Below, in pieces: positions 28,364 through 41,469 of a stretch of DNA of 45,045 bases (its first letter is position 1; each line of letters begins with the position of its first letter). The notes below the pieces were generated by a model. It had not been told where the DNA came from and searched no databases. It saw nothing but the letters and a program-made list of their open reading frames with translations. The position numbers and the translations under genes are program-made. This DNA comes from a virus, in the IMG/VR virus record IMGVR_UViG_3300027800_000007, positions 1 through 45,045 of that record. The stretch is one strand, 5' to 3'.

Positions 28364-28371
28364 AAAAAAAA

Positions 28372-28404
28372 GAGGGTAGCGACCTCAAAAAACACCGCAA
28401 GGAG
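28372..28404 (+). promoter_or_regulatory. Pseudoknot leader, copy A
   Basis: GAGG (28372-28375) pairs with CCTC (28383-28386). The loop's GCG (28379-28381) can pair with CGC (28396-28398) across an A-rich stretch. The SD GGAG (28401-28404) follows directly and the gene's ATG is at 28412. Same plan as copies at 33613 and 34254; this one has a longer A-rich connector. Confidence 0.55.
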
Positions 28405-28411
28405 AAAAACA

Positions 28412-28666
28412 ATGAAAGGAATTTTTACTGGTAAAACGTACAAAGATTATGCAAAAGCGAACGGCGATTCCGACGAAACAATTGAATCGAGAGTTGGTGG
28501 CTTGTTTGGATCAGACGCCGTTATAGGTGAGTTAATCGAAAGCACGAGTGATCATGATTCTTATAGTGTTGGCGGATATATTCTGAACATGAACAATTCG
28601 GCGTGCGATACGGTAGAAGTCAGAGATGAAGATGGTGAAACAATCGAATCTTGGTTTCTTGATTGA
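28412..28666 (+). CDS. Small acidic protein, first gene of the anti-CRISPR operon
   Basis: 84 residues from ATG 28412 with a GCAAGGAG site. It is very acidic, Ser/Asp/Gly-rich, with 'DSYSVGGYILNMNNSACDTVEVRDEDGE', suggesting a small beta sheet. No family recognised. By position, first behind the promoter of an operon with an AcrVA2 homologue, it is a candidate anti-defence protein; that is inference only. A GAAA-tetraloop hairpin (28675-28692) follows its stop. Confidence 0.65.
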   Translation: MKGIFTGKTYKDYAKANGDSDETIESRVGGLFGSDAVIGELIESTSDHDSYSVGGYILNMNNSACDTVEVRDEDGETIESWFLD

Positions 28667-28674
28667 ATTATTAT

Positions 28675-28692
28675 GCGGGGAGAAATCCCCGC
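28675..28692 (+). other. Intergenic GAAA-loop hairpin
   Basis: GCGGGGA (28675-28681), GAAA, TCCCCGC (28686-28692), a perfect stem with a GNRA tetraloop. Only a short TCATTTT follows, then the SD of the next gene. It could be a weak terminator or a stabiliser/processing signal that sets relative expression. Confidence 0.6.
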
Positions 28693-28711
28693 TCATTTTA
28701 ACGGAGGATTT

Positions 28712-28996
28712 ATGAATCTTGAAAAAAACGAATTTATGCTCGTCGTTGACTCAACAAACGGGTTTGCACTCTGGGACGAAGAATCAACACCAGTGAAAGA
28801 GCAAGGACTCGGAGTTAAGGATCAGATATTTTTTAACGTTGAAGAATCAATCAGAATTGAAAAACTCGATGAAAAATGGGGAGTAAACCCAGGCGATCTT
28901 TTGGAAAAAATGGAGAAAGCAGATGAAGACGAATATAAACAGCTCTGGAAGCAAATTGAAGAGTTCTGGGCTAAAAACGATCAGAGTAACCGCTAA
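28712..28996 (+). CDS. Hypothetical acidic protein
   Basis: 94 residues from ATG 28712 with ACGGAGGA upstream. It is acidic, with a beta-like first half and a helical, Glu/Lys-rich second half ('LLEKMEKADEDEYKQLWKQIEE'). No family recognised. The HTH gene begins within its last 74 nt in another frame. Another anti-defence candidate by association. Confidence 0.65.
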   Translation: MNLEKNEFMLVVDSTNGFALWDEESTPVKEQGLGVKDQIFFNVEESIRIEKLDEKWGVNPGDLLEKMEKADEDEYKQLWKQIEEFWAKNDQSNR

Positions 28997-29195
28997 AAAT
29001 TATGATGACATGAAAACGGCGATGAAACGGTATCTGATTCTTGAGATTAACAGAAGGATTCTTTCGCTCGGCACTCGGGAGAAGCTTTCAGTTGCGCTTG
29101 GTCATGCGGAGAATTATGTTCAGCTTATACTTAAGAGGCAGTCATTTTCCGCGCTTGAGCGACTCGTCAAGGAATGCCGGGAGAAGCTCGGATGA
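28923..29195 (+). CDS. Small HTH protein upstream of the anti-CRISPR gene (Aca-like candidate)
   Basis: 90 residues from ATG 28923, where GGAGA lies 8 nt upstream; an internal ATG at 29010 would give 61 residues without the long overlap. The C-terminal part 'LSVALGHAENYVQLILKRQS' looks like a helix-turn-helix. It overlaps the AcrVA2 gene by ATGA, so both are made together. Small HTH proteins beside anti-CRISPRs (Aca) usually repress the operon; the inverted repeats at 28316 and 28341 would be the targets. A related HTH lies at 30235. Confidence 0.65.
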   Translation: MKTNINSSGSKLKSSGLKTIRVTAKNYDDMKTAMKRYLILEINRRILSLGTREKLSVALGHAENYVQLILKRQSFSALERLVKECREKLG

Positions 29196-30085
29196 AGCTA
29201 CACGCGAAAGAAGTTCTTGAGCGTTGGAATAGAGAGCACGCTGAATGGTTTCAAACCGTTAATCTATTCGTCAATGCAAAACATAATCGGGAATTTTCGT
29301 GGGCTGACTGGTGCTTTGTTCCGATTTCTGCGACCATTGCCGCAGTGAGACCGGAAGGAGAGCCAACAATGCAGGACTTGTATTTGAGTGGAAACCTTGC
29401 GATACTTTCGGCATGGCGCGTCTCTCAAGGCGTTTACAGATTTGATCCGACCTTATGGCGCGAACTCTGGACGACTCCGGTTGACGATCAGATCCCAGTC
29501 GACGTGTTCTTAAATCTGCCGGAGTGGTGCGTTTATATCGAAGTTCCAGCGGAAACAATCGGCGGTTGTCATGGTGTATGGGTACATCTTGAGCACGATC
29601 AAGTTAAGGGACATTCGGAATTGCGTCTCGGTGTTGACATGGACTCATATATTGCCGTTATCCCGATGCACTTAAAGCCGACACTAACGGAATCTTTTTC
29701 CGCCACTGCGGAATATATTTCCTCAATCTCGAAATTCGATATGAGCGAAATCTCCGGAATGCTTGATCCTATCAAAAGCTTTGTTGCTCATGTCATTCCG
29801 CACATATTGTATCTATGCTCGGCAGAAGCGGACTTTATTCGTCCAAATCGCCCGAACCCGAAGAAGATTAAGAGCGGAATACGCTATTTCGATCCTGACG
29901 AACCACGGATAATAGAAGTTGGTTACGGCATCGGAAAGATCATCCGCGAGAGCGGAACCGGATCACACAGCGGAAAAGCTCCACACATCCGAAGCGCGCA
30001 CTTCCACACTTTCCGTTGCGGTCCCGGAAGAATTGACAGCTTTATTAAGTGGATTCCGCCGATTGCAGTGAACGCCCATGAATAA
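29192..30085 (+). CDS. acrVA2: AcrVA2-family anti-CRISPR protein
   Basis: 297 residues from ATG 29192 (GGGAGAAG site). From memory of AcrVA2 (322 residues), several blocks match in order: 'AWRVSQGVYRFD', 'VFLNLPEWCVYIEV', 'VIPHILYLCSAEADF', 'EPRIIEVGYGIGK', 'PHIRSAHFHTFRCGPG' and 'IKWIPPIAVNA'. AcrVA2 lowers Cas12a by recognising its nascent N-terminal peptide and causing loss of its mRNA. Relatives are wider spread than Cas12a, so the target here may be another nuclease. The translated start at 29174 is rejected because it lies in the previous gene without a ribosome site. Confidence 0.88.
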   Translation: MKLHAKEVLERWNREHAEWFQTVNLFVNAKHNREFSWADWCFVPISATIAAVRPEGEPTMQDLYLSGNLAILSAWRVSQGVYRFDPTLWRELWTTPVDDQIPVDVFLNLPEWCVYIEVPAETIGGCHGVWVHLEHDQVKGHSELRLGVDMDSYIAVIPMHLKPTLTESFSATAEYISSISKFDMSEISGMLDPIKSFVAHVIPHILYLCSAEADFIRPNRPNPKKIKSGIRYFDPDEPRIIEVGYGIGKIIRESGTGSHSGKAPHIRSAHFHTFRCGPGRIDSFIKWIPPIAVNAHE

Positions 30086-30242
30086 TATCACAATAGAAAT
30101 CAAAGATTCTGAAGCAAATCTATTTCTTGGAGACGGTCGCTCAGTCGAAGTTATCCTCAATGATTTTACTCTACCCGAAAAAACAATGAGAGAAATATTG
30201 AGCTTCATCGGGCGAAAATTGATTGACGCCGATAATGGATAA
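30078..30242 (+). CDS. Small hypothetical protein in the anti-CRISPR operon
   Basis: 54 residues, starting 8 nt inside the AcrVA2 gene (ATGAATAA overlap) and ending over the start of the HTH gene. It has an Asp/Glu-rich beta-like N-half ('NITIEIKDSEANLFLGDG') and a helical end. No family recognised. The tight coupling suggests co-function with AcrVA2. Confidence 0.55.
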   Translation: MNNITIEIKDSEANLFLGDGRSVEVILNDFTLPEKTMREILSFIGRKLIDADNG

Positions 30243-30486
30243 GCATAGCAATATCAGCATGAGTATAACATTTTACAGTGCGGCAGACGTTCGAGCATCA
30301 CACGAAGCCGAAAAGAAGTATCTGTTCAGATCAATAAAAGAAGCATCTGAAGCGGCAGGGGGAGACGATAACCTTGCACGTCTGATAGGTATCGATTCGG
30401 CTAAAATGAAGAAAGACCTTGATAGAGGGTCGTTTTCTGGCATGCTTCGTGTACTTGAAGCTATTGAAAACAGGAATAAACGGTAA
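30235..30486 (+). CDS. Second small HTH protein of the anti-CRISPR operon
   Basis: 83 residues from ATG 30235, overlapping the previous stop; a later ATG at 30259 is also possible. The C-terminal part 'GGDDNLARLIGIDSAKMKKD' looks like a helix-turn-helix, and 'RGSFSGMLRVLEAIENR' can be aligned with 'RQSFSALERLVKECRE' of the 28923 protein, so the two may be distant paralogues. Probable autoregulator or Aca-like protein. Confidence 0.6.
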   Translation: MDKHSNISMSITFYSAADVRASHEAEKKYLFRSIKEASEAAGGDDNLARLIGIDSAKMKKDLDRGSFSGMLRVLEAIENRNKR

Positions 30487-30615
30487 TAATCGTCGATTTT
30501 CACTATGAGACATAAGATATATTATCGGAAGTAAAAAATATAATATAAAAACTTGCATTATTTCCCTATTTCAAAAACGGCTTGACTCCCGAAAGCTATC
30601 CGATAAGAGAAAAAC

Positions 30616-31332
30616 ATGATAATAGCAGTAAACAGCCACAAAGGCGGAACCGGTAAAACAACAACAGCAATTCATCTTGCGGACATATTGTCCGAAACCG
30701 GTTCTGTTCTTCTTATTGATCTTGATGACTCATGCAACCTTACAAATTTCTATATTGATACAGCTCAGAAAAAAACTATCATTGAATTTCTCAAAGGCGA
30801 TAAAAAAACCATAAAGCAAATACGCTCAGGTCTTTCGATTGTTTGCGGAAGTCCGGAAATGGCTCGGTTCGATAAACTTTTCTATGATGCTGTCGGTGTC
30901 GAATTAGTTTTAAAGGAAGCTCTGGACGGACTGCCTTTTGACAATATTATAATTGATACGCCGCATTCTATGGGCGGAATTATCGCAAACTCTCTTTTTG
31001 CTGCAGATGTTGTTGTAATACCGGTCCTACCTCACTCGTGGAGCGTTGACGGAAGCATGGATATAGTGGCGTATATTGAAAAATTGAAGTCCAGTCCGAG
31101 AAAAAAAGATATGGGGGAGTGTCGCCCTACCCTTTTACCCGTCGCCCTTGCCTCTCTTTCAAGCCATGACAGACAGCTTCCGGCTATGCTTGGAATCGTA
31201 CATAAAAACATTGAAGTATTGCCGAAGATCCCTTACAATAAGTCGATAATGAAGCACCAATCAGAAAAGATTGTTAAGAAAACGAATGTCTATAAGGCAT
31301 ACAAGGAAGTAATCAAATGGCTTTCAAAATAA
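30616..31332 (+). CDS. parA: ParA-type partition ATPase
   Basis: 238 residues. It starts 'MIIAVNSHKGGTGKTTTA', the deviant Walker A with the signature Lys before GG; 'LLIDLDDSCNL' and 'NIIIDTPHSMGG' are Walker A-prime and B. There is no N-terminal DNA-binding domain, so it is a short ParA (type Ib-like). It moves plasmid or prophage copies apart over the nucleoid. The 129-bp gap upstream is AT-rich; TTGACT at 30582-30587 may be its -35. It overlaps its partner gene by 16 nt. Confidence 0.93.
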   Translation: MIIAVNSHKGGTGKTTTAIHLADILSETGSVLLIDLDDSCNLTNFYIDTAQKKTIIEFLKGDKKTIKQIRSGLSIVCGSPEMARFDKLFYDAVGVELVLKEALDGLPFDNIIIDTPHSMGGIIANSLFAADVVVIPVLPHSWSVDGSMDIVAYIEKLKSSPRKKDMGECRPTLLPVALASLSSHDRQLPAMLGIVHKNIEVLPKIPYNKSIMKHQSEKIVKKTNVYKAYKEVIKWLSK

Positions 31333-32066
31333 AAGAAAAAACAGAATTAAAATTCGACATAGAACCGGTCGATCACGGCAAAAGAGTTATTGAAGCCAGG
31401 GAAATGAGGTTCAGAGAAAACGACCGTGCCACGGTTGACAGTATTCTCTCGATATATGAAGAAAACAAGGCTAAAGTTGAGACCGGAACTGATGATGAAC
31501 AGATAATGCTGTTGTCAACCATGCATGCACAGCGTGAATTCATGGGATGGTTTCTCGGTGAAGCTCTGATGATTATAGACGAAAAAATCAAAGACGGAAA
31601 GAAATCATCTATTGTTTCCCTTAATGAATGGCTTGATGTTAACGAAGGTCGCCTCGGATTTGGGAAAAAGACTGCGTATAAATACATTGTTGTTAGACAG
31701 GCTTCTACGCTCGAACAGTTTAAAAAACTCGGAGTGTCTAAAACTCTTGCAGTCGCTCAGATCAAGGACGAAAAGAAACGCGAAGAAGCTATCAAAAAAG
31801 TTACTGAATCGAAAATGACAACTGAAGCCGTTAAAAGCTATGTTGAAGAGCTTGCGGAGAAAGAGCGCGACAAGCTCCGGAAAGCCGTCGAAAAGAAAAA
31901 AACTGAAGCAAAGAAAGAAATTCCTATATCCTTCAAGCCGGATAAAAACGGCATAAGCATCCAGACGTCCGCAGAATACGCAGATTTACTGAGAGACTTC
32001 CTCGGGTCACCATCGGAAATAGAGCGCCTTAAAATAGCTCTATACCGCCTTAGAGAGCAAATCTAA
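31317..32066 (+). CDS. ParA-partner DNA-binding protein
   Basis: 249 residues, starting 16 nt inside parA. It has no classical ParB box. A central segment 'SLNEWLDVNEGRLGFGKKTAYKYIVVRQAS' resembles the DUF3102-like or spirochaetal PF50-type plasmid proteins, with a helix-turn-helix feel. Then come a Lys/Glu coiled coil (about 175-205) and a C-terminal part. Immediate coupling to parA makes it the likely centromere-binding or adaptor protein; family assignment is tentative. Confidence 0.65.
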   Translation: MAFKIKEKTELKFDIEPVDHGKRVIEAREMRFRENDRATVDSILSIYEENKAKVETGTDDEQIMLLSTMHAQREFMGWFLGEALMIIDEKIKDGKKSSIVSLNEWLDVNEGRLGFGKKTAYKYIVVRQASTLEQFKKLGVSKTLAVAQIKDEKKREEAIKKVTESKMTTEAVKSYVEELAEKERDKLRKAVEKKKTEAKKEIPISFKPDKNGISIQTSAEYADLLRDFLGSPSEIERLKIALYRLREQI

Positions 32067-32096
32067 GCCCCCTTTCTAATGTGACATAAAAAAACC

Positions 32097-32127
32097 TTGA
32101 CATTAATACTACTTGGTGCTACCAAGT
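32097..32127 (+). promoter_or_regulatory. Promoter with perfect palindromic operator (possible centromere)
   Basis: TTGACA (32097-32102), 17 bp, extended -10 TGC-TACCAA (32117-32125). A perfect palindrome ACTTGGT-GCT-ACCAAGT (32111-32127) covers the -10. It should be bound by the RHH protein encoded just downstream, as is usual for small autoregulated plasmid genes. It may double as the partition site for the ParA system. Confidence 0.7.
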
Positions 32128-32160
32128 GTCATTGAGTGAGATTAATATCAAGGGGGCGGC

Positions 32161-32331
32161 ATGACCGTTAAGAAAAACATAACTTTGTCGGATAACGTTG
32201 CCCGTTGGATTGAGAGACGACTCGAAAAAGAACCATGGCGAAATGGAAATTTCTCCGGAATGGTTAATGAATTGCTTCATAAGCAGATGTCAGAATCCTC
32301 TGATTCGTTAGAAGACGAGGATAAAAAGTAA
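32161..32331 (+). CDS. Ribbon-helix-helix regulator
   Basis: 56 residues with a very G-rich ribosome site (AAGGGGGCGG). A short strand 'KKNITLSDNVARWIE' and helices '...FSGMVNELLHKQM' fit the MetJ/Arc (RHH) fold, with an acidic tail. Sitting behind parA and just before rep, under a promoter with its own palindrome, it probably works as copy-number or partition regulator (CopG/ParG type). A terminator overlaps its stop. Confidence 0.75.
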   Translation: MTVKKNITLSDNVARWIERRLEKEPWRNGNFSGMVNELLHKQMSESSDSLEDEDKK

Positions 32332-32361
32332 AAACCCCAGAATTGCAGTTCTGAGGTTTTT
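32326..32361 (+). terminator. Intrinsic terminator between RHH gene and rep
   Basis: AAAACC-C-CAGAA (32331-32342) pairs with TTCTG-A-GGTTTT (32349-32360) around TTGCAG, with an A-run before and a T-run after. It could work in both directions. It isolates rep from upstream transcripts. Confidence 0.8.
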
Positions 32362-32391
32362 GAAAAATTTCGGTTAGTAAATCCCTTTCGG

Positions 32392-32449
32392 GTATGTTCA
32401 GAACATACTCCGATAGGATCAGAATTGTCAAGAATTTTTCTTGTCGGAG
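32392..32449 (+). promoter_or_regulatory. Structured leader of rep with sequestered ribosome site
   Basis: GTATGTTC-A-GAACATAC (32392-32408) is a 17-bp perfect palindrome. Next, CTCCGA (32408-32413) pairs with TCGGAG (32444-32449), enclosing CAAGAA-TTT-TTCTTG (32429-32443). The only SD for rep, CGGAG, lies in the closing stem 7 nt before the ATG. This suggests translational control of Rep, as in plasmid copy-number systems. Confidence 0.6.
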
Positions 32450-32456
32450 CGCTTAA

Positions 32457-33176
32457 ATGGCGAAGTATGAGATTCAGAACAAGTATCTCCGCGCTACATT
32501 TGGAGATATAATAGATCACGGATTCACGTCCGTGCCTAATATGCTGCTTGCCAACGGTCACAAGATGGGGCTGTCCGACCATGCGGTATTATTCATCATC
32601 CAAGCTCTTCGGGCCTCTTACGCATCCAAAAACAAAGGCGGCATCATTGAGGACGGAGATCTCTGTATGAGTTCGAGCACTTCAACCTTATACCGCATCC
32701 GGAAAGAGCTAAAAGAACTTAAAGGCTCAGACGGTAATCCATTAATTAAAATCAAAACATTCTACGAAAAAAGTGATTCGGGAACAATATCGGGAGCCGG
32801 AACGCATTATGATTTTTCTGGACTTTTTGAGGAAGTATCAAAAAGATTTTCACCGACCGGTCAAAATGACAATTCGGTGACACCGCCGACCGGTCAAAAT
32901 GACCGAGAGCCAAGCAAAAAAAGCGAGCCCACCGGTCAAATTGACAAAGCTATGCCGGTCAAAATGACCGATATTAATATAGAATTAGATTTAAAAGATA
33001 TTATAGATAGGCAGTCTCAGGAAATAAAAACATACTTTGTATTTAATGACTGGGAATTCAGATCAGACGGTAATGCAGTTCATAAAGTTTACGGGGATAA
33101 ATATCCGGTAAGAAAATTTCCGTTTATGCTGCCTTTGGAGCTTGTTAATAAAATAGACGAATTATTCCCTGGATAA
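32457..33176 (+). CDS. Plasmid-like replication initiator with iterons in its gene
   Basis: 239 residues. The N-terminal 110 residues look like a winged-helix initiator ('NGHKMGLSDHAVLFIIQAL', 'CMSSSTSTLYRIRKELKEL'). A hydrophilic linker repeats 'PTGQND/PTGQID' and is encoded by four near-identical DNA iterons. The C-terminal part is distinct and may bind a helicase or loader. An initiator whose own gene holds the origin is the arrangement of lambda O. It would start plasmid-state replication. Its 3' end overlaps the convergent HTH gene by 15 nt. Confidence 0.75.
   Translation: MAKYEIQNKYLRATFGDIIDHGFTSVPNMLLANGHKMGLSDHAVLFIIQALRASYASKNKGGIIEDGDLCMSSSTSTLYRIRKELKELKGSDGNPLIKIKTFYEKSDSGTISGAGTHYDFSGLFEEVSKRFSPTGQNDNSVTPPTGQNDREPSKKSEPTGQIDKAMPVKMTDINIELDLKDIIDRQSQEIKTYFVFNDWEFRSDGNAVHKVYGDKYPVRKFPFMLPLELVNKIDELFPG
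32857..33015 (+). other. Putative replication origin: four iterons plus AT-rich region
   Basis: CCGGTCAAAATGAC occurs at 32857-32870, 32890-32903 and 32955-32968, and with one change (AAATT) at 32932-32945. Start-to-start spacings are 33, 42 and 23 bp, close to whole helical turns. The core GGTCA-AAA-TGAC(C) is itself a palindrome. Directly after comes an AT-rich stretch (about 32970-33015), like a DNA unwinding element. All of it is inside the rep gene. Confidence 0.7.
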
Positions 33177-33500
33177 GTCCTTCAGAGTTTTTTTGAGGGC
33201 TTTTAGTGCTTCAGCTTTTTTTTCATCGGGGAGCTTTGAGAAATTATTATAAAGATCAACAAATTCAGGAGATACGCCAGAAACATTTGCTACATCATTT
33301 TTGTGCATGAAGAGTGTGTAAGCTTTGACTCCTGCAATTTCGCAGATTTGGAAAATCATGTTTACCCATTTCGGATCACAGTTTAAACGCTGAGATAGAG
33401 TATTTTTAGGAAGTCCCATTCGACGGGCATACTCGGATCGCTTCATCGGAGATGAATCCATCAGCTCTTTTAATCTTTCTGCAATATCAATATTTTTCAT
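33162..33500 (-). CDS. HTH (Xre/Cro-like) regulator
   Basis: 112 residues on the opposite strand, convergent with rep. The N-terminal helix-turn-helix 'KRSEYARRMGLPKNTLSQRL' is of the phage repressor type, and the C-terminal part is helical ('LPDEKKAEALKALKKTLKD'). The promoter region between it and the 33648 gene has a GTTC-N9-GAAC box. Its layout resembles the repressor at 40635-40970, so the phage has two such proteins, perhaps a repressor pair like cI and cro in role. Confidence 0.85.
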   Translation of the reverse strand: MKNIDIAERLKELMDSSPMKRSEYARRMGLPKNTLSQRLNCDPKWVNMIFQICEIAGVKAYTLFMHKNDVANVSGVSPEFVDLYNNFSKLPDEKKAEALKALKKTLKDLSRE

Positions 33501-33546
33501 GTCTCTTCTTTTGTCTTATAACGAAGAAAAGTCAAGTCTAAAAAAA

Positions 33547-33610
33547 GTTCTATATTTTGGAACAATTCGCTTGACAATATAATACATACATAATATATAT
33601 GTATTATATC
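33547..33610 (+). promoter_or_regulatory. Promoter cassette 1: box, promoter, palindrome
   Basis: GTTC-N9-GAAC (33547-33563), 7 bp, TTGACA (33571-33576), 17 bp, TATATA (33594-33599). A perfect 12-bp inverted repeat ATATAATACATA/TATGTATTATAT (33577-33588/33598-33609) covers spacer and -10. The cassette at 34189 has the same parts at the same distances. The box is upstream of -35, better suited to activation or cooperative repression than to simple blocking. Confidence 0.75.
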
Positions 33611-33612
33611 AA

Positions 33613-33638
33613 AGCCGAGCGGGCTAAAAACGCAAGGG
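33613..33638 (+). promoter_or_regulatory. Pseudoknot leader, copy B
   Basis: Stem 1 AGCC (33613-33616)/GGCT (33622-33625), loop GAGCG (33617-33621). The loop's GCG pairs with CGC (33631-33633) across AAAAA. The SD AAGGG (33634-33638) is adjacent and the ATG is at 33648. Differs from copy C in stem 1 by compensatory changes while loop and tail are kept. Confidence 0.65.
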
Positions 33639-33647
33639 AAAAGAAAA

Positions 33648-33992
33648 ATGGCATACATTACATCAGAACAAGTTAAAGCAGTAAGAGAAGCAATCAAAAA
33701 AGAATTTCCAAATTACAAGTGGACAATTACTGGCAAAGACTATTCTTCTATTTATATCAGACTAATGGCGGCTGATTTTTCTGAAGAAGAAGTTTCTAAT
33801 TATGATAACATTTTTATGTATTTTGACAAGTTTCCAGAAAGACTCAAAGAGGTATTTTCTAAAGTTAAAGAAATACTTTTCAGAATAGCGCCATATCATA
33901 ATAATTCTGATAGTATGACAGACTATTTCGATTATGCTTATTTCTATTGGTTTTCTATCGGAAAATGGGATAAGCCTTATGTCCAAAAGTAA
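33648..33992 (+). CDS. LPD29-like small protein
   Basis: 114 residues with AAGGGAAAAG upstream. 'ITGKDYSSIYIRLMAADF' and the end 'MTDYFDYAYFYWFSIGKWDKPYV' match the LPD29-like domain found in polyvalent proteins and as small single genes on phages and plasmids. Such genes travel with anti-defence islands, but the biochemical role is not known. Expressed from cassette 1 through a pseudoknot leader. Confidence 0.65.
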   Translation: MAYITSEQVKAVREAIKKEFPNYKWTITGKDYSSIYIRLMAADFSEEEVSNYDNIFMYFDKFPERLKEVFSKVKEILFRIAPYHNNSDSMTDYFDYAYFYWFSIGKWDKPYVQK

Positions 33993-34000
33993 GGAACATC

Positions 34001-34018
34001 AGCCGGAGAAATCCGGCT
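34001..34018 (+). other. Intergenic GAAA-loop hairpin
   Basis: AGCCGGA (34001-34007), GAAA, TCCGGCT (34012-34018), then TTGATTATAAAT and an ACGGAGG ribosome site. Same design as 28675-28692. Weak T-run, so probably attenuation or RNA stabilisation and not a full stop. Confidence 0.6.
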
Positions 34019-34046
34019 TGATTATAAATAATAACGGAGGTAAAAT

Positions 34047-34202
34047 GTGAATGCGGTAACGTCTATTTATTGTCCGATTGAGACAATGAAACAATTTAAT
34101 CAGCTTGCGAAAGAAGAGAATATGACCAAAGGAAAGACTTTAGAAAAACTGATTGAAAGCTATAAAGAAAAAAAAGAGAAAGAAAAAAGTTCCAAAAAAT
34201 AG
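34047..34202 (+). CDS. Ribbon-helix-helix-like regulator
   Basis: 51 residues from GTG 34047, with GGAGG at 34036-34040; an ATG two bases earlier is closed by TGA. 'VTSIYCPIETMKQFNQLAK' then 'MTKGKTLEKLIESYKE' fits a short RHH protein with a basic tail. The GTTC-N9-GAAC box of promoter cassette 2 overlaps its last 14 nt. It could bind the palindromes of the two cassettes. Confidence 0.65.
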   Translation: MNAVTSIYCPIETMKQFNQLAKEENMTKGKTLEKLIESYKEKKEKEKSSKK

Positions 34203-34252
34203 AACTTATTTCTTGACAGAAAAACAATGATATAATACATATATATTATATC
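34189..34252 (+). promoter_or_regulatory. Promoter cassette 2: box, promoter, palindrome
   Basis: GTTC-N9-GAAC (34189-34205), 7 bp, TTGACA (34213-34218), 17 bp, TACATA (34236-34241), and an inverted repeat GATATAATA/TATTATATC (34229-34237/34244-34252). From the start of the box to the end of the palindrome it has exactly the 64-bp length of cassette 1. It drives the 34286 gene and probably the recombination genes. Confidence 0.75.
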
Positions 34253-34253
34253 A

Positions 34254-34279
34254 AGGTGAGCGACCTCAAAACGCAAGGG
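34254..34279 (+). promoter_or_regulatory. Pseudoknot leader, copy C
   Basis: Stem 1 AGGT (34254-34257)/ACCT (34263-34266), loop GAGCG (34258-34262). GCG (34260-34262) pairs with CGC (34272-34274) across CAAAA. SD AAGGG at 34275-34279, ATG at 34286. Geometry (4-bp and 3-bp stems, 2-nt first loop, A-rich last loop) is right for an H-type pseudoknot. Confidence 0.65.
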
Positions 34280-34285
34280 AAAAAG

Positions 34286-34621
34286 ATGAACGAATTTTGC
34301 GAAAATCACTGCATGAAATGCGAACATGGCGAACCGTGGGGAGAAGACACTTCTTTCAGTCATCATTTTGGGATTGAGAGAGGCATGGAAACCCACATCA
34401 CTTGTAATCATGATAATGGAAGCGAAGACCCAACAGGAGCTTGGGCTTGCCCTCTAATGATAGCAGCTCACGAAGTAAACGTCGCAAAAGGCGAAACAGA
34501 TTGTCCTATCACTTGCGAACATATCGGCTACTATATCGAAGAGATTATAGAAGGTGAACCTTTGACGTATTGTCATCGTCGCAAAGGTGAATGCACACAC
34601 AAATTAAAAATAGGAGCGTAA
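34286..34621 (+). CDS. Cysteine-rich protein before the recombination genes
   Basis: 111 residues from ATG 34286; a GTG 30 nt upstream lies in the pseudoknot leader and is unlikely. It has nine Cys and many His: 'CENHCMKCEHG', 'THITCNHDN', 'WACPLM', 'CPITCEHIGYYIEE', 'CHRRKGECTH'. Probably binds two or more zinc ions. No family recognised. It is 3 nt from the annealing protein gene, so it may be a partner in recombination. Confidence 0.65.
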   Translation: MNEFCENHCMKCEHGEPWGEDTSFSHHFGIERGMETHITCNHDNGSEDPTGAWACPLMIAAHEVNVAKGETDCPITCEHIGYYIEEIIEGEPLTYCHRRKGECTHKLKIGA

Positions 34622-34624
34622 AGC

Positions 34625-35431
34625 ATGAGTACGGATTTAATGACGAAAGAAAAACACGAATTAGCGCCTGTCTCAGAACAGGTACTATCAAGCTACCTTG
34701 CAACATTTACGGGGGCAAATGCCCTTCTCGAATCGGAAAGAATGCAGTTCTTGGAAATAGCCAGAGCTTATAATCTAAATCCGTTCAAAAGAGAGATATA
34801 TTGCGTAGCCTACGGGCAGGGGCAGTATCGTAAATTATCAATTATTACCGGCTATGAAGTATATCTTAAGAGAGCGGAAAGAACAGGGAAACTGGACGGA
34901 TGGAAAGCGGTTGTCGAAGGGAAGAAAGAAGAGATGAAAGCGAAAGTGATTATATTTCGCAAAGACTGGACTCACACCTTCGAGCATGAAGTACTATTTG
35001 AAGAAGTCGCTAAATATAAAGACGGCAAACTCCAAAGTATATGGGCTTCTTCTCCAACCTTCATGCTTAAGAAAGTGGCTATTGCGCAGGCTTTCAGAAT
35101 GTGTTTTCCTGATGAATTCGGCGGAATGCCTTATATCTCAGACGAGCTTCCAGACGAAATGACAAAAGGCTTCAATAGCCCATTGCCAACTTCCGGAGAA
35201 GGAACATCAAAAAATCCGGAATATATTCCGCCTGAAAATAAAACACAGCCGGAAGCAAAACCTGTTCCAGAAACACCGAAAGAAGAGCATGAAATGCTCA
35301 AAGAGGGGGAATTAATTCCGAAATGGTTTTGGAATATTCCGAAAGAGGTAAGAGCAAAATATATTCCTGAAGGATATCAGATTAAGAAGGTTGAAGATGG
35401 ATTTCGGTGCATTCCTAACGTACAACGATGA
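34625..35431 (+). CDS. bet: Single-strand annealing protein (Bet/RecT type)
   Basis: 268 residues. The region 'YNLNPFKREIYCVAYG' followed by 'KLSIITGYEVYLKRAERTGKLDGW' is diagnostic of the Redbeta (Bet) family. It anneals complementary single strands during recombination-dependent replication. The C-terminal 90 residues are Pro/Glu-rich and divergent, as usual for the SSB- or exonuclease-docking end. The exonuclease gene starts inside its 3' end, so the two are made as a pair. Confidence 0.93.
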   Translation: MSTDLMTKEKHELAPVSEQVLSSYLATFTGANALLESERMQFLEIARAYNLNPFKREIYCVAYGQGQYRKLSIITGYEVYLKRAERTGKLDGWKAVVEGKKEEMKAKVIIFRKDWTHTFEHEVLFEEVAKYKDGKLQSIWASSPTFMLKKVAIAQAFRMCFPDEFGGMPYISDELPDEMTKGFNSPLPTSGEGTSKNPEYIPPENKTQPEAKPVPETPKEEHEMLKEGELIPKWFWNIPKEVRAKYIPEGYQIKKVEDGFRCIPNVQR

Positions 35432-36002: not shown

Positions 36003-36011
36003 GAGTATGAT

Positions 36012-36728: not shown

Positions 36729-36745
36729 GCCGCCCTTTTATTATT
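36718..36745 (+). terminator. Terminator or attenuator at the end of the recombination genes
   Basis: GGGTGGC (36718-36724), loop GTAA, GCCGCCC (36729-36735, one U-G), then TTTTATTATT. The stop codon of the previous gene is in the loop, so ribosomes would disrupt it: terminator strength may depend on translation. Confidence 0.7.
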
Positions 36746-36755
36746 CGGAGGCAGT

Positions 36756-36974
36756 ATGATATTAGAAGACAGCATCACTTTGTTAAACGGTGTAACAATC
36801 AAAAGAGAAAACGGCAAATTTCCATCGTATGGCAATATTTCCGATAAGGCTTGCCCTTGCGATGACTGTCCGATGAATCATATTTGTTCTGAAAATCACT
36901 GGTTGCAATGCGGATGCGATGAAATGTTTTCAGGCTTAGAAATAGAAGTTAATAAACTCGGGAGGGCTGTATGA
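36756..36974 (+). CDS. Small Cys-rich protein
   Basis: 72 residues with CGGAGG upstream. 'CPCDDCPMNHIC' and 'WLQCGCDEMF' give six Cys, likely a metal-binding site. No family recognised. It overlaps the next tiny gene by 4 nt. Confidence 0.6.
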   Translation: MILEDSITLLNGVTIKRENGKFPSYGNISDKACPCDDCPMNHICSENHWLQCGCDEMFSGLEIEVNKLGRAV

Positions 36975-37102
36975 TTATTGCTGCCATTATTCTTTCAGTA
37001 GCATTACTGGTCGGATTCATTTATGTTATAACGAAGGTCGATGATCCTGATGTTGAACTTGCAGAGACTAAAGCGGAAATGTTTAAGGGGATGGCGAAAT
37101 GA
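36971..37102 (+). CDS. Small single-span membrane peptide
   Basis: 43 residues: an N-terminal hydrophobic segment 'MIIAAIILSVALLVGFIYVI' and an acidic then basic cytosolic tail. ATG 36971 overlaps the previous stop, and its own stop overlaps the methyltransferase ATG (ATGA). A strictly coupled micro-gene; role unknown. Confidence 0.6.
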   Translation: MIIAAIILSVALLVGFIYVITKVDDPDVELAETKAEMFKGMAK

Positions 37103-38787
37103 TAGAAAACAAGACTTATTATCCGACGCCTGAAAAAATTATATGGAAGATGTGGAGTAAGATAAACTCTTCGATTGTTTCAACAATACTTGAACCATCG
37201 GCAGGGCAGGGTCATATTGCCGAATTTATCAAAAGAAGAGGCAGTCGAGAAGAAATATCATGTATTGAAATAGATCAGAATTTTCAATCTATTCTCAGAG
37301 GTAAGAAGTTCAAGGTCATCGACTCTGACTTTCTGGCATACTCAGGCTCGGACAGATTCGACCTTATTATTGCAAATCCCCCATTTAACGAGGGCGGAAC
37401 GCACCTGATGAAAGCAATTGATATCATGTATTCTGGACAGATAGTCTTTTTGCTGAATGCGGAAACGCTGAAGAATCCGTTCTGTAATGACCGGAAAGCC
37501 CTTGTTCAGAGGCTTGAAGAACTGAATGCAGATATCGAATATATCCCGGATGCTTTTGTTAATGCAGAACGTAAAACACCGGTTGAAATTGCCCTGGTGT
37601 ATATCAATATCGAAAGAGATATCGCAGATGATTTATTCAGAGATTGCACGGACAAAGCGAAAGACTATTCGGTCGAACTGGACGAAGAAAAGGAATTGAT
37701 GTCATCGAATAATATTACTTCCAGAGTCGAGATATATCAGAAAGAATTGAGTGTCGGACTCGAATTCATTCAGAATTATTTTAAGGCGTCGAGATATGTC
37801 GGGCAATACTTTGAGCTTGAAAAGAACGACTTCAGATATTGCAATACATGGAATGCGAAAGTCAATGCGGAAGTTAATCGTTTTGTTTCTGCTTTACGTA
37901 AAGATCACTGGAAGAAGATTCTCGACATGAAGGAAGTTAGCTCTCGAATGACAGAAAAGAAAGTGCAAGAATTCCATCATAAGGTCGAAGAACAGGGAGA
38001 TATGGAATTCAATGAGTCAAATATCCGCTCATTCATTATATCGCTTATCGGCAGCTATGAACAGACTATGACTGAAGCAGTTGAAGAGATATTCGACCGC
38101 TTAACAAGACGCTATTCGTGGGCGGATGAAACCGACAAGAATATTCATTATTTTAACGGATGGTCAACAAATAAGGCGTTTTACGTTAACAAGAAAGTAA
38201 TTGTTCCGGCAGGGAGCGGATACGGGGCTTCCCACCCTTTTATTGGTTATAGTGGGGATTTGAGAGTGGATAGATGGGTATTAAAAGAATTCAACGACAT
38301 CGACAAAGTGATGAACTACTTTGACGGCAGTAAACATTATGAAATACTTGATGAACCGATACCAGATGATTTCCAACACCGAAAGGAAGAATACAATAAG
38401 CAGGGCTATGATATTCTTGTTATAGATGGGAATTCGAGATGGATTAAGTACATTAATTATGTTTCAATTTTTGATGCAATAGAGAAGGCATTCAAAGAAC
38501 CATCGGCAAGGCTTTCAGAGAAAATATATTCAACTTACTTTGAAATAGTTTGCTATAAGAAGCGGACTGTTCACCTTACTTTTCGGTCTGAAGATATCCT
38601 GAGACGCTTTAATGTTTGCGCGTGTAAGCATAAGAAATGGCTTCCTGAAGATTACGGAAAGAAGAAATATTCGGATATGTCCGAGAGAGAGAAGGCGGTT
38701 GTGGCTGAATTTGAAGGAAAAGACAAGTACAGCAAGAACCTGAATCAAATCGGCTTTGCGCCGAAAAACTTTGAAATGATAGCGTGA
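37099..38787 (+). CDS. Adenine-N6 DNA methyltransferase with DUF4942
   Basis: 562 residues. The N-terminal 190 are a gamma-class-like methylase: 'ILEPSAGQGHIAEF' (motif I), 'CIEIDQN' and 'LIIANPPFNEGG' with NPPF (motif IV), typical of adenine-N6 or amino methyltransferases. The remainder fits DUF4942, a domain fused to phage and plasmid methylases. It probably protects phage DNA from restriction or marks it for regulation. No partner endonuclease is nearby. Confidence 0.9.
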   Translation: MIENKTYYPTPEKIIWKMWSKINSSIVSTILEPSAGQGHIAEFIKRRGSREEISCIEIDQNFQSILRGKKFKVIDSDFLAYSGSDRFDLIIANPPFNEGGTHLMKAIDIMYSGQIVFLLNAETLKNPFCNDRKALVQRLEELNADIEYIPDAFVNAERKTPVEIALVYINIERDIADDLFRDCTDKAKDYSVELDEEKELMSSNNITSRVEIYQKELSVGLEFIQNYFKASRYVGQYFELEKNDFRYCNTWNAKVNAEVNRFVSALRKDHWKKILDMKEVSSRMTEKKVQEFHHKVEEQGDMEFNESNIRSFIISLIGSYEQTMTEAVEEIFDRLTRRYSWADETDKNIHYFNGWSTNKAFYVNKKVIVPAGSGYGASHPFIGYSGDLRVDRWVLKEFNDIDKVMNYFDGSKHYEILDEPIPDDFQHRKEEYNKQGYDILVIDGNSRWIKYINYVSIFDAIEKAFKEPSARLSEKIYSTYFEIVCYKKRTVHLTFRSEDILRRFNVCACKHKKWLPEDYGKKKYSDMSEREKAVVAEFEGKDKYSKNLNQIGFAPKNFEMIA

Positions 38788-38791
38788 TAAT

Positions 38792-38941
38792 ATGAAATAC
38801 AAAAAGCCCGAATGCTGCAAAGTCTCAGATGATGAATGGAACGCGCCCCTCGGTTACTGTTGGGCGTTAGCATTAGCTCAAGATGAAGGTATAGAGCATG
38901 ATTGTTCTAATTGTGAACGTGTTTTAAGTTTAAGAATATAG
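38792..38941 (+). CDS. Small Cys/His protein
   Basis: 49 residues directly after the methyltransferase, 4 nt from its stop, with only a weak ribosome site. 'PECCKVSDDEWN' and 'HDCSNCERV' suggest one metal site. No family recognised; moderately likely to be real. Confidence 0.45.
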   Translation: MKYKKPECCKVSDDEWNAPLGYCWALALAQDEGIEHDCSNCERVLSLRI

Positions 38942-38960
38942 CCTCAAATTAATCGGGACA

Positions 38961-38979
38961 TTGCACGAAGAATGTGCAA
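38961..38979 (+). other. Hairpin in the 141-bp gap after the 38792 gene
   Basis: TTGCAC (38961-38966), loop of 7, GTGCAA (38974-38979). No T-run directly after, though T-rich DNA lies about 25 nt downstream (39003-39017). Perhaps a weak terminator. Confidence 0.4.
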
Positions 38980-39032
38980 GCAAACGTTATTCTCGAAACT
39001 GAATTTTTTTCTATTTTTCAGAGATTAATTTC

Positions 39033-39063
39033 TTGCGCTGTTTACTATACAGACGTATAGTAA
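39033..39063 (+). promoter_or_regulatory. Promoter overlapped by a perfect 9-bp inverted repeat
   Basis: TTGCGC (39033-39038), 17 bp, TATAGT (39056-39061). TTACTATAC-AGAC-GTATAGTAA (39042-39063) is perfectly palindromic and covers the spacer and -10: a very clear operator. It serves the 39083 gene, which lies 20 nt further on behind GGGAGG. Confidence 0.75.
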
Positions 39064-39082
39064 GACATAAGGGAGGCAAGGA

Positions 39083-39217
39083 ATGGAGTCCGAAAGCAGC
39101 AATAAGCCACGGAGGGCAATCCCGTCCGAGGCAATCAGTAATTATCAGAGAATAGTGGAGGCAGTAAAGGAACAGAACCGCCGGATTGAAGAATCCGAGC
39201 GGTTGGAGGCTTGTTAG
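39083..39217 (+). CDS. 44-residue peptide behind a strong regulated promoter
   Basis: The ORF has a strong ribosome site (AGGGAGGCAAGG) and its own operator-promoter. It is basic at the N-terminus ('NKPRRAIPSEAI') and then forms a single long charged helix ('YQRIVEAVKEQNRRIEESERL'). It may bind its operator as a dimer or act as a small regulator. It is convergent with the lipoprotein gene on the other strand, and their stops overlap by 2 nt. Confidence 0.6.
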   Translation: MESESSNKPRRAIPSEAISNYQRIVEAVKEQNRRIEESERLEAC

Positions 39218-39561
39218 CGAGTCATACGCATGACATATCCGTCTTCTTTACGCTTAACAATAAGCTCATTAGAAGAAGAGTACGAAATGTCGTAAGTTTG
39301 AGAACCTTCTTTGTCATCGAATTTTAAAATGAGAATGTCTTCAGTTATAGAGTAAGTTCCTTTTACGGGATTAAATGTTGGAATAAAAACAATAAATGAT
39401 TTGTCTTTTGAAAAAACGTAATACACGAAAAGTGTGTTTTCTTCAGCGGGCTTAAGTTTATCAAATGGCGGATCAAGAACCTTCCATTTACCGACAATAT
39501 CGGTCTTTCCGAAACAAGAAGAGAAAACCAAAATAGCCAAAACCATACATAATTTTTTCAT
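39214..39561 (-). CDS. Putative lipoprotein, lipocalin-like
   Basis: 115 residues from ATG at 39561 (AGGTG site on the - strand). Signal: 'MKKLCMVLAILVFSSC' with Cys16 as the lipidated residue and Phe at -3. The mature part is beta-rich: 'DIVGKWKVLDPPFD', 'GTYSITEDILILKFDD' and 'NELIVKRKEDGYVM'. That is the plan of small lipocalin-like bacterial proteins. Last gene of the - strand cassette. Likely located in the envelope of the lysogen. Confidence 0.75.
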   Translation of the reverse strand: MKKLCMVLAILVFSSCFGKTDIVGKWKVLDPPFDKLKPAEENTLFVYYVFSKDKSFIVFIPTFNPVKGTYSITEDILILKFDDKEGSQTYDISYSSSNELIVKRKEDGYVMRMTR

Positions 39562-39566
39562 TGTTA

Positions 39567-39872
39567 TCACCTGTTACACTTAGGACATACTTTTCTATCA
39601 AGGTCGTACTCTGTTTCACAGTACGGGCATTTTCTTTTATTAAAACCAAGCATAAGCAATCTGCGAAGATCCTCATAATCAAGTTTGCGCTGAATTTCGT
39701 TCTTGTCGGCTTTATCGACAAGGTAGGCGATGGCGAAATATGTTATACTCTGAATTATACCGGCAATAATAAACAACACTGAAAGCTTTAGTTCCCTCAT
39801 GGCATCATCAAGACCTAAAACGATTCCGCCGATTATAGACAATATACCAAGAAAAATAAGAATGTTTCTCAT
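39567..39872 (-). CDS. Two-span membrane protein with C-terminal zinc ribbon (copy 1)
   Basis: 101 residues with GAGGTAA upstream on the - strand. Two membrane segments lie at about 4-22 and 30-54; then comes a charged linker and a zinc ribbon 'CPYCETEYDLDRKVCPKC' at the end. It is a tandem paralogue of the 39882-40187 gene. Both termini of the hairpin would face the same side, with the ribbon in the cytoplasm. No family name; superinfection exclusion is a possibility by location. Confidence 0.75.
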   Translation of the reverse strand: MRNILIFLGILSIIGGIVLGLDDAMRELKLSVLFIIAGIIQSITYFAIAYLVDKADKNEIQRKLDYEDLRRLLMLGFNKRKCPYCETEYDLDRKVCPKCNR

Positions 39873-39881
39873 TGTTTTACC

Positions 39882-40187
39882 TCACTTAAAACATTTAGGG
39901 CACACAAGGGAATCATGGTTGTATTCTGTTCCGCATGTGGGGCACGATTTTTTAGGGACAATTCTTGAAAAAATCCCATTGATTTTAGTAAATTCAGAAA
40001 GAAGTTTGTTTTCTGTTATCTCAGACTTATGATATAGATGTGCGATAGCGAAATAGACAACGCTTTGCGTTATTCCTGAAATAATACAGAAATTAGACAA
40101 CTTCATGTATTGCACGGCATCAGATTGACTGAGCACAAAACCGCCGATGACCGTTATAATTCCTAAAGCAATAAAAAGATATTTCAT
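39882..40187 (-). CDS. Two-span membrane protein with C-terminal zinc ribbon (copy 2)
   Basis: 101 residues from ATG at 40187 (GAGG site; a GTG at 40199 is in frame). Same plan as copy 1: 'LFIALGIITVIGGFVLS', 'FCIISGITQSVVYFAIAHL', then 'CPTCGTEYNHDSLVCPKC'. The two copies keep the IIxGxxQSxxYFAIA core and the ribbon spacing and differ in the linker, an old tandem duplication. Confidence 0.75.
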   Translation of the reverse strand: MKYLFIALGIITVIGGFVLSQSDAVQYMKLSNFCIISGITQSVVYFAIAHLYHKSEITENKLLSEFTKINGIFSRIVPKKSCPTCGTEYNHDSLVCPKCFK

Positions 40188-40195
40188 TGTTTGCC

Positions 40196-40576
40196 TCACA
40201 TTAAAAAATATTTAAGAAGATCATAAGTGCCATCATCGGTTTCTTTGATTTTTGCACTACTTGCTGTTCCATCCGGAAGAGTGGAAGCAATCACAGTTTC
40301 CTGACCAACTGCAAATGCAACGGAAATATTTATTTTGCCACCAGTTGCCCATAGACAATAGTTCTTTTCTCCATTTGGGAAAGCCACCATTGCACCAACG
40401 AAGTAAACATTTTTGAAGTCTTTTGACTTAACTGTTTTAAATTCTGAAACAACAGAATAGCCTTCGACTAATGACTTTTTGATAATGTCTATTTGTTCGC
40501 CAGAAGCATCTTCTAATCTGCTTGGAGAAGAGCAAGCGAGAATAGAAACTAATAGAATAAAGCTAAGATATTTCAT
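40196..40576 (-). CDS. Putative lipoprotein, first gene of the conversion cassette
   Basis: 126 residues with GAGG upstream. Signal 'MKYLSFILLVSILAC' with Cys15 as lipid site. The mature part has 'KDFKNVYFVGAMVAFPNGEKNYCLWATGG', a beta-rich fold with one more Cys. No family recognised. It lies just downstream of the repressor gene on the same strand, the standard place for genes expressed in the lysogen. Confidence 0.75.
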   Translation of the reverse strand: MKYLSFILLVSILACSSPSRLEDASGEQIDIIKKSLVEGYSVVSEFKTVKSKDFKNVYFVGAMVAFPNGEKNYCLWATGGKINISVAFAVGQETVIASTLPDGTASSAKIKETDDGTYDLLKYFLM

Positions 40577-40634
40577 TTAAACCTCGTAGTATATAAATTT
40601 AATAATAATATCCGAAAGGGAAAAAACTAAGAAG

Positions 40635-40970
40635 TCAAGGCTTTTTTAGCCCTGTGAAGGTAGTCACAAATTCCACGTCCGCAGCGAGTCGAGAAGAAAT
40701 AAACTTCTGCTGCTCTTCAGTAAGCTGTGATAATGCGTCCATAGCCTCAAAAAACGTCATAGGAAGCTCTGTTTCGACTGAGGCAAGGACTTTCCATGCG
40801 TCAACGCCGCAGGCATCACAGATTTTAACAATAGTCTGATAGGTGAGATTATCTGAGTCCCAATATCTATTGACCGTAGGGGGAGCTACCCCAAGTTTGC
40901 CAGCAAGAGAAGCCTGAGAAATCCCCATTGTTTCTATCATATTCTTCAGTGTTTGACCTATAGTAGCCAC
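40635..40970 (-). CDS. HTH immunity repressor
   Basis: 111 residues from GTG at 40970, chosen because GAGG is 6 nt upstream and because the longer ATG forms would place the operator inside the gene. The helix-turn-helix is 'ISQASLAGKLGVAPPTVNRY', and the C-terminal part is helical with no peptidase motif, so it is not LexA-like in induction. The GTTC-N9-GAAC box (40984-41000) is directly upstream, indicating autoregulation. The antirepressors at 41819-43217 may inactivate it. Confidence 0.85.
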   Translation of the reverse strand: MATIGQTLKNMIETMGISQASLAGKLGVAPPTVNRYWDSDNLTYQTIVKICDACGVDAWKVLASVETELPMTFFEAMDALSQLTEEQQKFISSRLAADVEFVTTFTGLKKP

Positions 40971-40983
40971 AATAACCTCACGT

Positions 40984-41000
40984 GTTCCAAAAAATAGAAC
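40984..41000 (-). promoter_or_regulatory. GTTC-N9-GAAC box at the repressor gene
   Basis: GTTC-CAAAAAATA-GAAC, extended by one more pair on each side to GTGTTC/GAACAC. It is identical to the box at 34189-34205. It lies 14 nt before the repressor GTG and thus in its promoter or leader. Confidence 0.75.
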
Positions 41001-41064
41001 ACTTCTTTCCATCGACATAATAACCATAATAACTTAATAACGCATAAAAAAAAATGAAAAAAAC

Positions 41065-41105
41065 TTGACAAAATTGCTGTATATACTAATAGTCATTAGC
41101 ATATA
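41065..41105 (+). promoter_or_regulatory. Promoter region of the rightward early operon
   Basis: TTGACA at 41065-41070; the -10 is unclear, with TAGCAT at 41097 spaced 17 bp from TTGCTG as an option. CTAAT-AGTC-ATTAG (41086-41099), flanked by TATA/ATATA, is an inverted repeat, probably the target of the RHH protein at 41121. It is divergent from the repressor, about 100 bp away. Confidence 0.6.
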
Positions 41106-41120
41106 AGACAAGGGGGGCGC

Positions 41121-41285
41121 GTGGAAAAGGAATATACTACCTTCAAAGTCCTTAAAGAGGACATGCGCAAGTTTAGTGCTCTTGCCCGAAAGACTGGCGT
41201 TAAGCAGTATGTTCTTTTCAATAACATTTTTGATTATTATATCAAGAATAACAAAGAGAAGAACATCATTAAAGTATCCGACTGA
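41121..41285 (+). CDS. Ribbon-helix-helix-like regulator
   Basis: 54 residues from GTG 41121 with AAGGGGGG upstream, nearly the same G-rich leader as the RHH gene at 32161. 'EYTTFKVLKEDMRKFSALARKTG' then 'YVLFNNIFDYYIKNNKEK' fits a small Arc/CopG-like protein. It sits where lambda-type phages keep cro and may have that role. Confidence 0.65.
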   Translation: MEKEYTTFKVLKEDMRKFSALARKTGVKQYVLFNNIFDYYIKNNKEKNIIKVSD

Positions 41286-41309
41286 AATATAGCCCACGGG
41301 TTTATATTT

Positions 41310-41415
41310 GGGCGTGCTGCCCTAAAACGCAGGGGCGTCAGGCGGACGGAAAAGCGCAAGGGAAACGCGAACGGCGTATAAGCGTAAGTGACAGCGTGCG
41401 GCTGTTAAACGCAGG
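41310..41415 (+). ncRNA. Tandem array of four small pseudoknots
   Basis: Four units at 26-29 nt steps. Unit 1: GGGC/GCCC (41310-41322), TGC with GCA. Unit 2: CGTC/GACG (41336-41348), GCG with CGC. Unit 3: ACGC/GCGT (41365-41377), ACG with CGT. Unit 4: ACAGC/GCTGT (41391-41405), TGCG with CGCA. All have a 5-nt loop and an A-rich 4-6 nt connector before the second strand. Neither stem is conserved in sequence, but both are kept in pairing. The array lies between the RHH gene and the 41470 gene; no ORF fits. Confidence 0.65.
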
Positions 41416-41423
41416 AGAGGGAC

Positions 41424-41465: not shown

Positions 41466-41469
41466 TATC

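Follow-up and report, generated by a model that had tools for sequence, protein, structure and literature searches.

The window analysed here consists of 45,045 bases of a single IMG/VR virus record (IMGVR_UViG_3300027800_000007) from an uncultivated bacterial virus, and it carries on its + strand a repeated RNA element of ∼27 nt. Six clean copies, starting at 33613, 34254, 41310, 41336, 41365 and 41391, were identified by coordinate reading together with a grammar scan. They share one plan, in which a stem 1 (S1) of 4–5 Watson–Crick base pairs encloses a 5-nt loop and is followed by a 4–6-nt A-rich linker, a triplet (S2′, usually CGC or CGT) complementary to the end of the loop, with which it would form stem 2 (S2), and a purine tail. 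An initial annotation of this DNA had reported such a plan at 28372, 33613, 34254 and 41310–41415; every coordinate proved correct, with 28372 fitting only loosely. The virus thus has at least six copies, and the element at 28372 is probably a seventh. Four copies stand in tandem within 108 nt (the array, 41310–41417), ahead of replication genes. The copies are listed below, their parts being written in the order S1/loop/S1′/linker/S2′/tail:

28372..28404, + strand, copy A, a looser variant: S1 GAGG (28372–28375)/CCTC (28383–28386), 7-nt loop GTAGCGA; 3′ part with a 9-nt linker AAAAAACAC, S2′ CGC (28396–28398) and the Shine–Dalgarno (SD) sequence AAGGAG (28399–28404); ATG at 28412
33613..33638, + strand, copy B: AGCC-GAGCG-GGCT-AAAAA-CGC-AAGGG; S1 33613–33616/33622–33625 (AGCC/GGCT), loop GAGCG 33617–33621, linker AAAAA, S2′ CGC 33631–33633, tail and SD AAGGG 33634–33638; ATG at 33648
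34254..34279, + strand, copy C: AGGT-GAGCG-ACCT-CAAAA-CGC-AAGGG; S1 34254–34257/34263–34266 (AGGT/ACCT), loop GAGCG, linker CAAAA, S2′ CGC 34272–34274, tail and SD AAGGG; ATG at 34286
41310..41335, + strand, array unit 1: GGGC-GTGCT-GCCC-TAAAAC-GCA-GGGG, with the S2 register shifted
41336..41362, + strand, array unit 2: CGTC-AGGCG-GACG-GAAAAG-CGC-AAGGG
41365..41390, + strand, array unit 3: ACGC-GAACG-GCGT-ATAAG-CGT-AAGTG, the sole copy with a compensatory S2 change (ACG/CGT)
41391..41417, + strand, array unit 4: ACAGC-GTGCG-GCTGT-TAAA-CGC-AGGAG

Copy A is 71% identical to copy C over 38 nt. The S1 fold is considered real because the letters of the stem change between copies while the pairing stays. 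In an alignment of five window copies with one look-alike from an unrelated phage record (locus L052, described below), two to three pair types were present at every S1 position and 100% of the cells were paired; the covariation score of this alignment was reached by none of 500 shuffles and was lost on a one-column slide. When the S1 strands were permuted among the six copies, full pairing was obtained only in the true arrangement, which is one of 720. The copies had partly been chosen for their pairing, and the independent test of S1 is the comparison of two paralogous promoter-leader modules, 33541–33642 and 34183–34283, which share 71% of their bases along 72 nt of upstream sequence and 84% within the element (31 nt). 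The five base differences between copies B and C within the element consist of two compensatory double changes in S1 (CG to GC and CG to TA) and one linker base, a degree of compensation expected from five random substitutions with P ∼9e-5. Selection on S1 for pairing, not for sequence, is thereby shown, and the initial proposal is supported as regards a covarying S1. Mutual orthogonality of the stems was considered and rejected, as cross-pairing was not below random in a hand count.

A loose grammar of the plan was not rare, giving 26 matches on the + strand against 18 ± 5 in order-2 Markov sequences. A strict grammar matched seven loci on the + strand of the window (the six copies and 32299, which is a chance match) and none on the − strand; two reversed controls of the window gave zero and one match, and control loci (8.4 million strand-bases) gave 0.75 matches per 45-kb strand. 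No cluster of three or more strict matches within 150 nt occurred in the 8.4 million control strand-bases, whereas the window has four in 108 nt. Selection by linker and tail alone returned seven sites on the + strand, five of them copies of the motif, and none on the − strand. A repeated, covarying RNA element is therefore real in this one phage.

S2 is moderately supported. The GCG of the loop and the CGC of S2′ are mostly invariant across the copies and are therefore uninformative either way on S2 pairing. In unit 41365 both sides are changed (ACG/CGT), which amounts to one compensatory change, and in unit 41310 the in-register S2 contains a U·C mismatch, three pairs (TGC/GCA) being restored by a one-base shift. 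Approximate stacking energies favoured the pseudoknot by 3–5 kcal/mol when the loops were assumed to cost 9 kcal/mol, and by 0–2 kcal/mol when they were assumed to cost 12 kcal/mol, and the lengths of loop and linker agree with H-type geometry, as had been suggested. An H-type pseudoknot closed by GCG/CGC is accordingly likely. The opposing explanation, which cuts across all the functional ones discussed below, is that the copies are simple hairpins in which S1 is real and the loop GCG and the downstream CGC are kept for some other reason; it draws on the thinness of the S2 evidence, namely one compensatory unit and one in-register mismatch, but it runs counter to the stacking energies, the recovery of three pairs in 41310 and the fit of the lengths, and we consider it rather unlikely.

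In the three single copies the tail is the SD and directly follows the element, 6–9 nt before the ATG, just as the initial annotation had it. In contrast, no ATG, GTG or TTG lies within 20 nt behind the tails of array units 1, 2 and 4, the next ATG after unit 4 being at 41470, ∼50 nt on, and the purine tail is nonetheless kept. Its retention in three array units that lack a start at working distance makes it probable that the tail is more than an SD site. The purines of units 1, 2 and 4 are unexplained by initiation, and a pure gating model, in which the element would control access of the ribosome as initially proposed, is therefore weakened; moreover, the SD-like tail lies outside both stems and no anti-SD switch is common to the copies, so that gating of the ribosome site found no support. 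An alternative nested hairpin that pairs the SD in copy B was examined as such a switch and rejected, since on reading the sequences the bases that would pair with the SD are not conserved across the other copies. A coding origin of the array was also rejected: an open frame (41273–41473) spans the units, but it offers no ATG, GTG or TTG before the GTG at 41396, within unit 4, and the unit spacings of 26, 29 and 26 are not multiples of three. That GTG opens a 25-codon frame, VRLLNAGEGRGESPFSILRKAKEVS (41396–41473), whose stop codon TGA (41471–41473) overlaps the ATG of the 41470 gene, and which by its arrangement is a possible coupled leader peptide. Past the array lies one further structured segment:

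41424..41465, + strand: GNRA hairpin GGGGC-GAAA-GCCCC (41424–41437), and CCTCC (41446–41450), which can pair with GGAGG (41461–41465), the SD of the next gene

Both the GNRA hairpin and the CCTCC/GGAGG pairing are present in the nested fold, with an unpaired probability of 0.13–0.39 for GGAGG; the pairing, across a 10-nt loop, would sequester the SD of the 41470 gene.

TTGACA promoters are found upstream of each of the three single copies and of the array transcription unit, and the copies are elements in cis, as initially claimed, lying just 3′ of such promoters of early-region genes. The promoters and the genes behind the copies are as follows:

28305..28333, + strand: promoter before copy A, TTGACA-17-TACATT
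33571..33611, + strand: promoter before copy B, TTGACA-17-TATATA, with a palindromic AT-rich stretch
33648..33992, + strand: gene behind copy B, a 114-aa LPD29-domain protein (Pfam PF18847, E 2e-8)
34213..34252, + strand: promoter/operator before copy C, paralogous to the copy B promoter (71% over 72 nt), TTGACA, 17 nt and a weak −10 TACATA
34286..34621, + strand: gene behind copy C, a 111-aa orphan; the next gene encodes a RecT/Bet annealing protein (34625–35431)
41065..41093, + strand: promoter before a 54-aa open reading frame (ORF) and the array, TTGACA-17-AATAGT
41470..41769, + strand: gene behind the array, a 99-aa protein with a weak match to a phage ‘replication terminator’ (E 0.057)

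The gene behind copy A is an orphan, and a replication-initiation/DnaD-like gene lies at 43794, further on from the array gene. Transcription before copy B is predicted to start near 33606, and by the usual promoter spacing S1 of copies B and C would lie within ∼8 nt of the mRNA 5′ end. Two 22-nt stretches, 33590–33611 and 34228–34249, are palindromic and exactly complementary to each other and overlap these two early promoters; they probably represent a shared operator of the divergent helix-turn-helix gene at 33162–33500. Hairpins of similar layout occur at 28675–28692, 34001–34018 and 41778–41799 (e.g. GCGGGGAGAAATCCCCGC), each placed after a stop codon and before the SD that follows, and are possible processing or coupling elements. 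Between the early operons, a cluster of short predicted lipoprotein and membrane ORFs on the − strand (39214–40576) may comprise accessory (moron) genes, and a tRNA-Met (cat) gene is located at 5660–5733.

Searches outside this record revealed little kin, which is weak evidence, as near relatives of this virus may be missing from the search sets. Rfam gave no family match to the elements, in agreement with the initial view of an RNA without known family, and no riboswitch at the gathering cut-off across the window or, near the copies, with the E limit relaxed to 5 or 10. A match to the freshwater-2 RNA (RF02980) at 28344–28414, ending at the start codon, scored 20.0 bits against a cut-off of 49.9; sub-cut-off matches occurred in nine of 14 control genomes, and it was treated as chance. 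Scans with the loop and tail pattern covered IMG/VR (three scans) and GTDB genomes. S1 pairing was not enriched over slid controls in the GTDB scan and one IMG/VR scan; in the other two IMG/VR scans stem pairs were counted without a control. Among the IMG/VR matches listed, L052 was the sole convincing look-alike (AGACC-GTGCG-GGTCT-AAAA-CGC-AAGGGAGA before an ATG), a TATATA ending just upstream of the element and no other copy being present in that record. At another locus, L207, a 6-bp stem is formed, and its position before a gene is not clear.

A covariance model was built from training copies that include L052 and omit array unit 2, so that its score on L052 is not independent. It gave 39.5 bits for copy B, itself a member of the training set, a match at 41340–41363 (15.3 bits, E 0.04) overlapping the omitted unit 2, and a match at 41392–41418 for unit 4. 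Across ∼1,270 genomes, made up of 11 single genomes, four phylum samples and two records, its matches were about as many as the E-values predict, with a slight excess in one phylum (four of 395 at E 0.002), and those inspected were mostly in coding sequence or lacked S2. The exception, L470 (1501–1527), is intergenic in a bacterial genome and reads AGGC-GAACG-GCTT-AAAAA-CGT-AAGGGG, its S2 forming as ACG/CGT as in unit 41365, and is followed by a second AAAACGCAAGAG; one such match among so many genomes is not compelling as a true relative. No relatives of the other three proteins behind the copies (those of copies A and C and the array) were found in IMG/VR or in annotated phages. RecT-bearing phage loci (1.2 Mb) gave 24 strict-grammar matches against 33 reversed, and the element was absent from these RecT relatives. 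The initial annotation had named missing covariation in homologues as evidence against its proposal, and this is nearly what was found: covariation is present between the copies of this genome (S1), but no alignable family exists outside the record in the sets searched.

We tentatively propose that the element is a phage-specific cis-acting RNA operator of ∼27 nt, placed in the leaders of recombination and replication genes and bound by one protein. A short stem-loop would be closed to an H-type pseudoknot by GCG/CGC, with the A-rich strand lying along S1 and a purine tail following. The constant loop GNGCG, the CGC and the ARGG over interchangeable stems would form the recognition surface for one phage- or host-coded protein, the stem serving as scaffold. 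Recognition by one protein is suggested because the loop, the CGC and the purine tail are constant while the stems change freely. Of the single copies, two would lie near the 5′ ends of their early mRNAs and the other in the leader of a further one, with the tail as SD, and, judging from the promoters, the array would lie in a transcribed gap before the replication operon. At a leader copy the bound protein would cover the initiation site next to it, and the four-copy array would bind several molecules, either controlling the replication operon or titrating the protein. The covarying S1, the enrichment and clustering of the copies, the purine tail kept in array units 1, 2 and 4 and the leader position behind TTGACA promoters count in favour of the operator, as do a RecT-containing operon behind copy C and a replication operon behind the array. 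The annealing protein of the RecT family encoded in the copy C operon may be a candidate autoregulator, by analogy with T4 gp32 only.

The precedent is the T4 gp32 operator, a 5′-terminal pseudoknot that is ∼28 nt long and precedes the initiation site (PMC535899). In the gene 32 operators of T4 and RB69 such a pseudoknot stands on the 5′ side of the region where translation of a gene for phage DNA metabolism is initiated (PMC535899), and the element described here would be alike in this; copies B and C, with predicted starts and a putative S2, may share the 5′-terminal position, the 27-nt element lying within ∼8 nt of the start; the RecT-family protein encoded behind copy C is a candidate only for the cognate protein. 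However, gp32 requires, 3′ of the pseudoknot, a stretch of >40 nt that is less structured, rich in UUAAA/UAAA and contains the initiation site, whereas here the SD is 6–9 nt from the ATG, there are several loci per genome and a four-copy array, and no gp32 homologue was identified. As the UUAAA-rich stretch is missing, the relation is one of likeness, not membership.

Several points weigh against an operator for one protein. The binding protein is one that we infer, and on reading the sequence no gp32-type UUAAA repeats were seen in the leaders. S2 pairing together with SD function could also account for the conservation of loop and tail, as could a recent duplication of the array. S2 offers one compensatory change (41365) against one in-register break (41310). 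The unit 3 tail AAGTG overlaps a GTG (41388–41390), and a second GTG (41396–41398) lies 5 nt past the tail. S1 does not always form in nested folding, with pairing probabilities of 0.4 in copy B and ≤0.14 in units 2 and 4 (in copy A the S1 hairpin is present in the nested minimum-free-energy structure); its stability therefore depends on S2, which is beyond a nested folding program. Finally, the element was found at none of 73 loci with LPD29 homologues, and it is convincingly shown by only one other phage record.

Other functions were weighed against this operator. The element could be a constitutive 5′ element that needs no regulator, its compact fold guarding the mRNA from 5′-end-dependent decay and presenting a clean SD beside an A-rich stretch. 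Models for such protection are the 5′ stem-loops found in the mRNAs of T7 gene 10 and ompA, and in phage 5′ mRNA stem-loops such as the T7 gene 10 leader a short 5′-end structure is followed by the SD, as here; unlike the present element, they are not, to our knowledge, known as multi-copy pseudoknot families or tandem arrays. The position of copies B and C close to the predicted starts, the TATATA just upstream in L052 as well, the directly adjacent SD and the free sequence of S1, whose turnover would then be expected, agree with a constitutive role. Yet it accounts neither for an array of four units in an internal intergenic gap nor for the constancy of the loop and the persistence of the purine tail in three array units without a nearby start, and we regard it as unlikely. 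Still less probable is a nut/put-like antitermination or pausing site, acting in nascent RNA on RNA polymerase at early operon starts. Its attraction is that copies stand at the very start of early transcripts, that a constant loop is carried on variable stems, a trait of boxB-type sites, and that the region has more terminator-like hairpins than expected (27 against 14.1 ± 4.5); four tandem sites ∼245 nt from a promoter would be unusual, though, and a literature search on put sites gave nothing.

Sensing of a small molecule, as the initial annotation envisaged, found no backing, as no pocket-like conserved residues were seen and the residues for preQ1-I specificity are absent. A riboswitch similar in size to preQ1-I, sensing a metabolite and perhaps acting cooperatively in the array, would share with the element the H-type topology, the A-rich loop 3 along P1 and the SD at the 3′ end (PMC11625349), and tandem occurrence is known for some riboswitches. 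The fold is thus alike, as had been noted, but the specificity residues fail: in place of the C (AC/UC) before the P1 3′ strand (PMC11625349) there is a G in six of seven elements (the set including L052) and a T in 41310, and instead of U/UU in L1 by the P1 5′ strand L1 is GA, GT or AG. The SD lies outside the pairing and not in P2, the 5-nt loops leave little room for a pocket, no metabolic gene is downstream and Rfam gave no match, so that this function is very improbable. We give the least credence to the array being a decoy antitoxin RNA (pseudo-ToxI-like) that neutralizes a type III toxin of the host. In type III antitoxin RNAs (ToxI, AntiQ, CptI), H-type pseudoknots in tandem precede a hairpin and then an ORF, an order also seen here, and ToxI-like repeats are known from phage escape mutants (PMC5086642). 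However, ToxI repeats are nearly identical, whereas the stem sequences of the units differ completely and TRF finds no repeat; the same element occurs singly in leaders; and no ToxN/CptN/TenpN toxin is encoded downstream, the 99-aa protein matching neither toxins nor defence proteins. Mini frameshift pseudoknots of the beet western yellows virus type are likewise very compact H-type structures with loop 3 in the S1 minor groove (PMC5009743), but the present elements lie 5′ of start codons and not behind a slippery site; by reading, an A-run precedes copy A only, in the leader and not inside a translated frame.

Taken further, the operator would represent an undescribed class of 27-nt phage RNA pseudoknots marking early operons for one trans-acting protein, with the four-unit array as operator or protein sponge, a claim that we consider unlikely. 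Pseudoknots so small, present six or seven times in one genome with four in tandem, have no match in Rfam or in the literature searched. If the proposal is true, stem turnover over a constant loop and purine tail would be a compact RNA analogue of repeated DNA operators. The copies themselves reveal which bases are free and which are fixed, so that the element lends itself to direct testing and could serve as a minimal scaffold in RNA–protein control. If one regulator is bound, the recombination and replication operons of this phage would be controlled via a shared RNA operator and not a DNA site.

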